This document shows positions 31,691-35,886 of a DNA stretch of 64,000 nt, in pieces (position 1 is the first letter of the stretch; each line of letters begins with the position of its first letter). The notes under the pieces were generated by a model. That model saw only the letters and a program-made list of their open reading frames with translations. It searched no databases and was not told the DNA's origin. The translations under genes and the position numbers were made by a program. The DNA comes from Actinospica robiniae DSM 44927 (GTDB lineage Bacteria; Actinomycetota; Actinomycetes; Streptomycetales; Catenulisporaceae), in NCBI RefSeq assembly GCF_000504285.1, contig NZ_KI632511.1, positions 6,988,154 to 7,052,153 on the forward strand, read 5' to 3'.

Positions 31691-31761
31691 TTTCTCGGTA
31701 CGCTCCGAAACCGGGAGGCGACCCGCGCCTACCCCGCACCACCGCCCGGATGGGATCTTCG

Positions 31762-33348
<1,587 letters not shown>

Positions 33349-33387: not shown

Positions 33388-34230
33388 TCAGTAGCGCGAG
33401 GCTTCCCGGTAGAGCGACTGGATCGCGGGGGTGAACGCCGCCGCGTAGCTGATCGCGGGGCCGGCGCCGCCCTGCTGGTAGCCGCCGACGACGCCGACGA
33501 GCGTGCCGATGCCGGTCGAGGGGTCGACGTTCGTCAGCAGCGGGCCGCCGCTGGTGCCGGCGGGGAAGCCGTCGCACACGACCCGCAGCTGCGTGCGGGA
33601 GTGGAAGCCCATGGTGGAGCGGCAGACGAGCGGGGCCTGACCGTCGTCGGCGTAGCCGAGTTGGACGGTGAGGGTGCCCGGGGCGGGGATGGCACCGAAG
33701 CGCTCGGCCCCGGTGACCGTCTCCAGCGGACGCGGGTCGTCTTTGCGGAAGACCGTGAGGAAGGAAATGTCGAAGTCGGGGTTCCCGCCCTTCGACGCAC
33801 TCCACTGTTTGGCCCGGATCACGCGCGTCGGGTACCAGACGCCGTAGGGCGTCGAGCTGCCGTCCCAGCCCGGCAGATAGGCCACCGCCATGGGGCCGCC
33901 CACGGTCGCGCGCACGCCGGCGACGCAGTGCGCGGCGGTCGCGATCAGGTCTCCGTTGGGGCTGTCCACGGCGACGGCCGAGCACAGCCGCTTGCCCGGG
34001 GTGCCGTCGAGGTTCTGCCACACCAGCGCGCCGACCTGCGGCAGGCCGGCGAAGGCCGCCCCGGCCCGGGGCGAGGAGAGCGAGGTCGCGCTGACCAGGG
34101 CGGGCGGCGCCGGCAGATCCGGCGGAAGGGTGCCCGCGGTCGTGGTGCGCGCCGTAGCGGCGGCCGTGAGCGCACTGGCGGCCACGACCGGGGCGAGGAT
34201 CTTGGCGGAGAGCAGCGGGATCAGCGGCAC
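33388..34230 (-). CDS. Secreted trypsin-like serine protease
   Basis: 280 residues from GTG 34230. The N-terminal hydrophobic segment (about 5-28, LLSAKILAPVVAASALTAAA) acts as signal peptide. The chymotrypsin-fold triad is complete: His101 in IATAAHC, Asp154 in NPDFDISFL and Ser227 in GFPAGTSGGPLL. Cys pairs at 83/102 and 203/219 match the usual disulfides. It lies at the end of a short minus-strand pair with a Cys-rich mini-gene 63 bases upstream. Substrate unknown. The start has a suboptimal AGG site. Confidence 0.9.
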   Translation of the reverse strand: MPLIPLLSAKILAPVVAASALTAAATARTTTAGTLPPDLPAPPALVSATSLSSPRAGAAFAGLPQVGALVWQNLDGTPGKRLCSAVAVDSPNGDLIATAAHCVAGVRATVGGPMAVAYLPGWDGSSTPYGVWYPTRVIRAKQWSASKGGNPDFDISFLTVFRKDDPRPLETVTGAERFGAIPAPGTLTVQLGYADDGQAPLVCRSTMGFHSRTQLRVVCDGFPAGTSGGPLLTNVDPSTGIGTLVGVVGGYQQGGAGPAISYAAAFTPAIQSLYREASRY

Positions 34231-34293: not shown

Positions 34294-34446
34294 TCAGGTC
34301 CCCGGAGCACGCTCCGGAGCCGGCTCGATCCGGATTTCCTGCTTGTGCGAGCCGCAGCCGCACGGGTTGCACCGGCACGGGTTGCAGCTGCAACCCCGGC
34401 CGCTGCAGCCGCAGGCGGACTCCTGCGGGGTGGGGGATTGGGTCAT
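34294..34446 (-). CDS. 50-residue Cys-rich protein, metallothionein-like
   Basis: The ATG at 34446 has a strong GGGAGG site 5 bases upstream and encodes 50 residues. Eight Cys fall within residues 12-31, as C-x-C, C-x-C-x2-C-x-C-x2-C-x-C, with the run CSCNPCRCNPCGCGSH; one His follows. No signal peptide. N- and C-terminal parts are hydrophilic, rich in Pro and Glu. The CxC density fits a metal-binding (metallothionein-like) protein; a modified-peptide precursor is another possibility, though no maturation enzyme is nearby. A 12-bp palindrome sits 21 bases before the start. Too short for most gene finders. Confidence 0.65.
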   Translation of the reverse strand: MTQSPTPQESACGCSGRGCSCNPCRCNPCGCGSHKQEIRIEPAPERAPGT

Positions 34447-34466
34447 GGGGCCTCCCAGGGCACGCG

Positions 34467-34478
34467 CGAAAGCTTTCG
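34467..34478. promoter_or_regulatory. Palindrome CGAAAGCTTTCG upstream of the Cys-rich gene
   Basis: Perfect 12-bp palindrome, 21 bases from the start of the Cys-rich mini-gene and about 180 from the divergent M20 gene. It resembles LacI-family operators of the CGAAA-TTTCG class in actinobacteria. Which gene it serves is unclear. Confidence 0.45.
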
Positions 34479-34656
34479 GTTAGTGCGTTCCCGGCGGGCC
34501 GTTCCGCTACCCTCGGTGACCCCGGCGCACTCGGCGCATCCGAGGGCGGATTGCGGTGGCGCGAGATAGTCCTGTCGGATCATTTGTGGCCCCCGGAGGG
34601 GTCAACTGGGGGCAAAAACGCGTCTCAGAGACGATTGACGGGTCTACCGTTGGGGA

Positions 34657-35886
34657 ATGGTCAGGAACCTCGCTGTCCCGTATCACGAAGCGCCCGTGCA
34701 CCCCGCGAGCGCACTGACCGCCGCGCGTATCGCCGAGCTCATCGAGATCCGCCGCGATCTGCACGCCCATCCGGAACTCGCCCGCCAGGAGCTGCGCAGC
34801 ACCGCCGTGGTCGCGGAGCGACTGCGCCAGGCCGGGCTCGAGCCCCGCGTGCAGCCCAGCGGAGCCGGCCTGACCTGCGACATCGGCGCCCGCCCTGGCG
34901 AGGGCGCGGCGCACGCGGGCTTCTCCGGCCGCCTCGCCATCCGGGCCGACCTCGACGCCCTGCCGATCCAGGAGGCGCCGGGCCTGACCTTCCGCTCGGT
35001 CACCGACGGGGTCTCGCACGCCTGCGGCCACGACATCCACACCACCGTCGTGCTCGGCACCGGCCTGGCGCTGGCCGAGGCCGCGGCCCAGGGCCTGCCG
35101 GTCCCGCCGGTGCGGCTGATCTTCCAGCCGAGCGAGGAGGTCATGCCCGGCGGCGCGCTGGACATGATCGCGGGCGGCGCGCTCGAGGGCGTCGGCCGCG
35201 CGGTCTCGCTGCACTGCGACCCGCGGGTGGACGCGGGCCGGGTGGGCCTGCGCATCGGCCCGCTGACCGCCGCCTGCGACAAGCTCGCCGTGCGCCTGAG
35301 CGGCCCGGGCGGGCACACCTCGCGCCCGCAGCTGACGGTGGACCTGGTGCACGCGCTCGCGCACCTGGTCACCGAGCTGCCGGCGGCGCTCTCCCGCCGG
35401 GTGGACCCGCGGCACGGGCTGTCCCTGGTGTGGGGCTCGATCAACGCCGGCCAGGCGCCGAACGCGATCCCGCAGGCCGGCGAGGCGCACGGCACCGTGC
35501 GCTGCATGGACGAGCGGGCCTGGGTGGACGCACCGGACCTGGTGCTCGAGCTGATCGACTCCATCGCCTCGGTGTACGGCGCGAAGACCGAGCTCGACTA
35601 CGTCCGCGGGGTTCCGCCGGTGGTCAACGACGAGCCGACGATCGAGGACATGCGCGTGGCGGCCGGCCGGATCTGCGGGCCGGAGAACGTGGTGGTGGTG
35701 GAGCAGTCGCTCGGCGGCGAGGACTTCTCCTGGTACCTGCGGCACGTGCCCGGCGCGATGGCCCGCCTCGGCGTGCGCACCCCGGGCGACACGGTCCAGC
35801 GCGACCTGCACCAGCCGAGCTTCCTCGCGGACGAGTCGGCCATCGCCATCGGCGTGCGGTTCTTCACCGAACTGGCGATGGGCTGA
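34657..35886 (+). CDS. M20-family metallopeptidase/amidohydrolase
   Basis: 409 residues. Zinc amidohydrolase of the M20D type (aminoacylase or indole-acetyl-amino-acid hydrolase-like). Landmarks are RRDLHAHPELARQE near residue 32, IRADLDALPI near 100, SHACGHDIHTT near 124, FQPSEEVMPGGA near 152 and a lid/dimer domain with GPGGHTSRP near 217. The metal-site Cys in CGHD is typical of M20D. SLGGEDFSWYL closes the site. The ATG at 34657 lacks a well-spaced ribosome site (GGGG directly adjacent), so a downstream start or a leaderless transcript is possible. Substrate unknown. Confidence 0.93.
   Translation: MVRNLAVPYHEAPVHPASALTAARIAELIEIRRDLHAHPELARQELRSTAVVAERLRQAGLEPRVQPSGAGLTCDIGARPGEGAAHAGFSGRLAIRADLDALPIQEAPGLTFRSVTDGVSHACGHDIHTTVVLGTGLALAEAAAQGLPVPPVRLIFQPSEEVMPGGALDMIAGGALEGVGRAVSLHCDPRVDAGRVGLRIGPLTAACDKLAVRLSGPGGHTSRPQLTVDLVHALAHLVTELPAALSRRVDPRHGLSLVWGSINAGQAPNAIPQAGEAHGTVRCMDERAWVDAPDLVLELIDSIASVYGAKTELDYVRGVPPVVNDEPTIEDMRVAAGRICGPENVVVVEQSLGGEDFSWYLRHVPGAMARLGVRTPGDTVQRDLHQPSFLADESAIAIGVRFFTELAMG

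Follow-up and report, generated by a model that had tools for sequence, protein, structure and literature searches.

The question raised by this locus is whether a very short, cysteine-dense open reading frame in the window (the whole 64,000-nucleotide stretch of DNA analysed here) is a gene at all and, if so, which function its product might fulfil. A previous sequence-only reading had placed here a 50-residue protein with eight Cys in 20 residues, CxC/CNPC motifs and a His, provided with a ribosome site and a proper start and stop. Translation recovers every one of these elements at the coordinates originally given, on the minus strand, which that reading had left unnamed; the plus strand of 34294–34446 encodes no such protein in the same frame.

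34294–34446, minus strand: coding sequence of the predicted 50-aa Cys-rich metallothionein-like protein (ATG at 34446–34444, TGA at 34296–34294)
34351–34413, minus strand: Cys core, residues 12–32 (CGCxxRGCxCNPCRCNPCGCG), with His34 two residues beyond
34451–34456, minus strand: Shine-Dalgarno-like GGGAGG, 4 nt before the ATG, read from the sequence

The 50-aa product (MTQSPTPQESACGCSGRGCSCNPCRCNPCGCGSHKQEIRIEPAPERAPGT), translated from minus-strand positions 34446 to 34294, carries all of its Cys within residues 12–31 (exactly 20 residues), arranged as CxC-x4-CxC-x2-CxC-x2-CxC (spacing x1 x4 x1 x2 x1 x2 x1), and contains a single His, His34.

Cysteine density, conservation and selection

At least eight Cys in 20 residues were encountered in two of the 3580 start-to-stop open reading frames of at least 30 aa within 464 kb of genome (the window plus 20 sampled stretches), namely the small gene and an open reading frame at 2087–2203. 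The latter (plus strand, TTG start) packs 11 Cys into 20 residues over a CTG-rich stretch; it resembles the reverse strand of a coding region rich in Gln, Pro and Gly and is probably spurious. Since a second, unsupported Cys-dense frame is present in the same sample, this density is rare, yet no proof of a gene.

A. durhamensis and A. acidithermotolerans, the two further Actinospica genomes sampled, each have an ortholog in the corresponding position (78 and 69% identical, with E-values of 5e-24 and 1e-20 in a search of the window genome and 59 relatives). The sequence-only reading had named a broken frame or a loss of Cys in relatives as evidence against the gene; neither was observed, as frame, start, stop and all Cys are kept in all three species. 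In addition, ribosome sites precede the orthologs (GGGAGGG in A. durhamensis, AGAAGGG in A. acidithermotolerans). Across the three species, 31 of the 50 alignment columns are invariant, including 8/8 Cys, His34 and both CNPC motifs, and the 19 variable columns contain neither Cys nor His (p = 0.008, under a naive column model only). Conservation extends to the Asn-Pro, Gly, Arg and His-Lys-Gln residues, which are conserved as much as the Cys.

In each pairwise comparison of these three species the dN/dS of the small gene is below 1 (0.23 for the window genome and A. durhamensis, 0.24 for the window genome and A. acidithermotolerans, 0.42 for A. durhamensis and A. acidithermotolerans) and is the lowest of the six frames. 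Using as a yardstick the neighbouring M20 gene, for which dS is 0.27 and dN 0.06 between the window genome and A. durhamensis, the evolution of the small gene falls within ordinary bounds. GC-rich genomes do hold many unused open reading frames, such as the Cys-dense one at 2087–2203, and the frame studied here could in principle be another; conservation in three species, the lowest dN/dS in this very frame, the shared start and stop and the ribosome sites make such an origin barely credible. Taken together, we regard this conservation as proof, at the level of sequence comparison, that the small gene is real, and the claim of an overlooked gene is thus borne out by its Actinospica orthologs along with its rare Cys density.

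Neighbouring genes and the promoter region

The small gene lies in an interval flanked by two plus-strand genes, which it shares with a protease gene in the window genome.

31750–33348, plus strand: methylmalonyl-CoA mutase (Pfam MM_CoA_mutase), on the far flank of the interval
33388–34230, minus strand: secreted trypsin-like serine protease, downstream (Trypsin_2, 34.9 bits against a Pfam cut-off of 27.6 bits)
34657–35886, plus strand: M20-family amidohydrolase, divergent, direct neighbour of the small gene in each of the three species

The mutase is also located near the M20 gene in A. durhamensis and in a genome of another genus of the family (G004), as determined by tblastn. Wider neighbours include succinate dehydrogenase, methylmalonyl-CoA mutase and a BMP-type ABC transporter, and neither a metal-homeostasis gene nor a peptide-maturation enzyme was found among the neighbours scanned with Pfam.

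The adjoining secreted protease, to which the sequence-only reading had drawn attention, is indeed present on the same strand, with a score above the cut-off and the H, D and S of its triad visible, and starts 63 nt after the small gene in the window genome. A serine protease 60% identical over 235 aa occupies the locus in A. acidithermotolerans. In A. durhamensis the protease is replaced by an unrelated, convergent, secreted-looking frame of 250 aa (L026:6332-7051), and the interval between mutase and M20 gene is therefore a variable spot. As a partner the protease does not hold, since it follows the small gene in two of the three species only. This arrangement bears on two alternative explanations. 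The first takes the product as the precursor of a Cys-rich peptide that is secreted or modified and is cut by the neighbouring protease, as its adjacency in the window genome might suggest. We consider it highly improbable, given that the protease is absent from the A. durhamensis locus, that no signal-like stretch was seen by eye at the N-terminus of this hydrophilic protein (GRAVY -0.8), and that the scanned neighbours lack a maturation enzyme. The second alternative, a leader peptide whose Cys codons would attenuate the following gene in response to the supply of cysteine, is in keeping with a short, Cys-rich frame followed at close distance by a same-strand gene in the window genome; mycobacterial polycysteine open reading frames are reportedly attenuating leader peptides of this kind. 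This, too, appears very unlikely: a convergent gene takes the place of the downstream same-strand gene in one of the three species, the frame contains no consecutive Cys codons, and the conserved non-Cys residues described above would be unneeded for attenuation.

Upstream of the small gene, three features of the divergent region require consideration.

34467–34478, no strand assigned: 12-bp palindrome CGAAAGCTTTCG, judged ordinary
34589–34619, minus strand: conserved non-coding block GTTTTTGCnnCCAGTTGACCCnnnnGGGGGC in the divergent promoter region, from the alignment
34645–34650, plus strand: TACCGT, a hexamer resembling a -10 element, 6 nt ahead of the ATG of the M20 gene

The palindrome pointed out earlier does exist, but it is one of 66 perfect 12-bp palindromes in the window (291 in a 400-kb genome sample) and is not kept in the aligned Actinospica relatives. 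The 210-bp divergent region as a whole is well conserved across Actinospica in the alignment, and a DNA search for it gave no match in the other 11 family genomes. Allowing up to three mismatches, the conserved block occurs once per genome in all three Actinospica species, always at this locus, and this single occurrence provides no evidence of a regulon. The sequence CTACCGT.GGGGAATG at the M20 start (34644–34659, plus strand) is kept in G004 (L072:1424-1440), and its TACCGT hexamer is likely a leaderless-type promoter of the M20 amidohydrolase. A promoter scan returned no sigma-70-type site and one weak terminator-like site; two Rfam microRNA matches (E 0.4 and 0.88), far below the gathering score, were judged to be chance. 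Inverted repeats are found upstream of the small gene in each species, none of them shared between species.

The promoter of the A. acidithermotolerans ortholog contains a CsoR-operator-like element, GGGGTATCGGTAATACCCC, at -41 to -23, with half-sites reversed relative to the normal operator (TACCCCnnGGGGTA). The corresponding inverted pattern, GGGGTATN{4,8}ATACCCC, picked after the element had been seen, is present at one place in A. acidithermotolerans (the small-gene promoter), at one in the window genome and at none in A. durhamensis, and was contained in 2 of 100,000 Markov shuffles of the A. acidithermotolerans intergenic region. The single site of this inverted arrangement in the window genome precedes, near 698,693, a gene of the CsoR family; this site agrees with the A. 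acidithermotolerans element at 17/20 positions with one gap (hand count). The element is thus found in one of the three species and is absent from the window's own small-gene promoter. Searching for the CsoR family itself yielded seven genes in the three Actinospica genomes, five of which carry TACCC...GGGTA elements at most 150 bp ahead of the CsoR domain that was matched (element positions recomputed by hand for L117, with its short left flank; the nearest element lies farther away in L116 and L120), and no such element occurs in the 464-kb genome sample. At L118:1360-1500, three clustered TACCC...GGGTA elements stand before a CsoR-family gene without the copper-site His, which presumably resembles a persulfide-type sensor. 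We therefore treat the CsoR-like element as a lead toward possible metal or persulfide control of the small gene.

Such control would suit a redox or thiol-stress protein, acting as a thiol reservoir or as a persulfide/zinc redox switch under a CsoR/CstR-like sensor. In agreement with this idea, a CsoR-family gene with a similar upstream site lacks the copper-site His between two Cys, which we take to fit the persulfide-sensing CstR. We nevertheless judge this explanation unlikely, as the shared CsoR-like site is restricted to one of the three species, and the dense CxC/CxxC spacing of this small protein, with small residues in between, is a hallmark of metal-thiolate clusters.

Distribution within and beyond Actinospica

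Matches to the small protein at E ≤0.1 were obtained in 31 of 60 genomes, with values better than 1e-5 in the three Actinospica genomes only. For the weak matches L009, L010, L013 and L017 the DNA on the match strand shows no comparable short Cys-rich gene; the other weak matches among the 60 genomes were dismissed as chance or low complexity without reading the DNA. At the order level, matches at E ≤0.01 came from 10 of 293 genomes, and the seven of these with E-values of 0.004–0.01 were likewise dismissed without reading the DNA. When the GTDB genome collection was scanned for two peptide patterns, 88 stretches came back, of which two belong to relatives, namely A. durhamensis CSCA 57 and A. 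acidithermotolerans MGRD01-02; the scan perhaps excludes the own genome by design, and diverged relatives with neither pattern would escape it. Querying 396 phylum genomes with the core returned, at E ≤0.001, the window's own genome as the sole match. The Cys pattern was found at 25 loci in 14 of 394 class genomes; of the 25, 6 were translated and 10 scanned for Cys-dense open reading frames, and these look like repeats of 15 bases, for the most part within frames that are long or interrupted, rather than short genes. Neither plasmids nor viral contigs contained a match to the small protein.

M20 orthologs are present in all 14 family genomes, which permitted a comparison of the same locus throughout. 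An open reading frame scan of the 14 M20 loci detected the small protein in the three Actinospica genomes only; the remaining 11 have no comparable frame there, the densest (6 Cys in 20) lying inside the M20 gene. A permissive tblastn of these 11 loci, with composition correction off, produced numerous short alignments with E-values as low as 3e-6, which were rejected as homologs because both the Cys spacing and an open reading frame of this type are missing from the aligned stretches. In G004 (6.8 Mb) mutase and M20 gene are adjacent, with about 200 bp between them and no small gene. Among the genomes searched, the small gene is restricted to Actinospica, and its absence from this interval elsewhere indicates that it either originated within the Actinospica lineage or disappeared from the others.

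Predicted metal binding and likeness to known metallothioneins

The product has sequence attributes of a metallothionein: 50 aa, a high Cys content, a CxC/CxxC arrangement and Cys positions conserved among orthologs. Family searches gave no match for it in Pfam or PHROGs (E up to 1), nor any NCBIfam family for the three orthologs (E up to 1); no chain among the PDB sequences matched, and a search of all three Actinospica genomes for the prokaryotic metallothionein family PF02069 was negative at E up to 0.1. In the open-licence literature we found no paper treating both Actinospica and metallothionein. Given this lack of a family match, the predicted function rests on composition and layout.

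On this basis, the small gene, itself real, probably encodes a metallothionein-like protein of the cytosol that would act as a metal-thiolate buffer, with Cu(I) as the likelier main ligand. The two suggestions of the sequence-only reading accordingly part ways, with the metallothionein-like assignment upheld by Cys layout and conservation and the peptide precursor set aside. The four CxC units (separated by x4, x2 and x2) and the nearby His would be unfolded without metal; the 20-residue core could then wrap a small metal-thiolate cluster, allowing the protein to buffer or sequester soft metal ions. Cu(I) is favoured because the CxC-rich layout closely parallels that of short fungal Cu-thioneins. 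A rival to the copper part only is a zinc/cadmium-type metallothionein, in which the eight Cys and His34 would hold about three divalent ions, as in the mammalian beta domain or in the Zn3Cys9His cluster that a Pseudomonas metallothionein forms according to part of PMC7387436. The invariant His beside the last CxC, taken with the lack of any closer homolog, keeps this alternative in consideration, and we hold it to be quite possible, if somewhat less than probable, as PF02069 gives no match in the Pfam scan or in the three Actinospica genomes and the CxC-rich layout is more like that of Cu-thioneins (PMC4755600).

We infer that the gene is expressed, that its product binds metal, the identity of that metal, and a role in metal buffering in acidophilic soil bacteria. 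Actinospica is described as an acidophilic genus in PMC9308616, and we infer a connection between the predicted role and an acidic habitat, in which metals are more available.

In genomes of a sister, Catenulispora-like genus (g2), a 90-aa Cys/His protein, MAVCEVCGNDYYMSF..., is present in 10/10 cases (match regions L107-L110) and has no match in the three Actinospica genomes or in G004. It resembles PF02069 weakly, below the cut-off, and is a candidate metal-binding protein of that genus; unlike the small protein, to which its sequence is unrelated, it shows zinc-ribbon-like spacing. A tentative and rather doubtful extension of our model would see the small gene as a genus-specific Cu metallothionein that arose or was acquired between mutase and M20 gene, became fungal-like by convergence, is CsoR-controlled in at least one species and may replace the Cys/His protein of the sister genus.

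The review PMC7558416 calls bacterial metallothioneins rare and mentions the SmtA type and MymT, the latter a non-annotated Cys-rich actinobacterial open reading frame tied to copper resistance. The small protein shares with MymT its small size, its Cys-richness and its initially unannotated status in an actinobacterium, whereas no NCBIfam model matched it. MymT is controlled by the CsoR-family copper sensor RicR, and its Cys spacing presumably differs from that of the small protein. With SmtA/BmtA (PF02069) it has small size in common and, as we assume for the SmtA motif, a CxC-x2-CxC stretch, but not a family match. If our assignment is correct, the small protein would add to these a further type, marked by a Cys spacing of its own and found in acidophilic actinomycetes, and its absence from this position in the sister genera sampled would offer a clean case for the birth and convergence of such proteins. 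The small gene also illustrates that small Cys-rich genes can escape family libraries.

Judged by sequence, the closest layout appears to be that of the short fungal copper thioneins, whose pattern is given in PMC4755600 as X2-[CXC]-X5-[CXC]-X3-[CXC]-X2-C-X3 with 7 Cys. In common with the metallothioneins of Neurospora crassa and Agaricus bisporus (Binz-Kagi family 8), the small protein has a CxC array with 7–8 Cys in about 20 residues. It differs by one more Cys, by shorter spacers (4, 2 and 2), and by the addition of a fourth CxC, two CNPC motifs, a His and N- and C-terminal extensions, so that it departs from the family-8 pattern and is similar in kind rather than a member. As no PDB chain matched by sequence, its likeness to the fungal Cu-thioneins is likely convergent.
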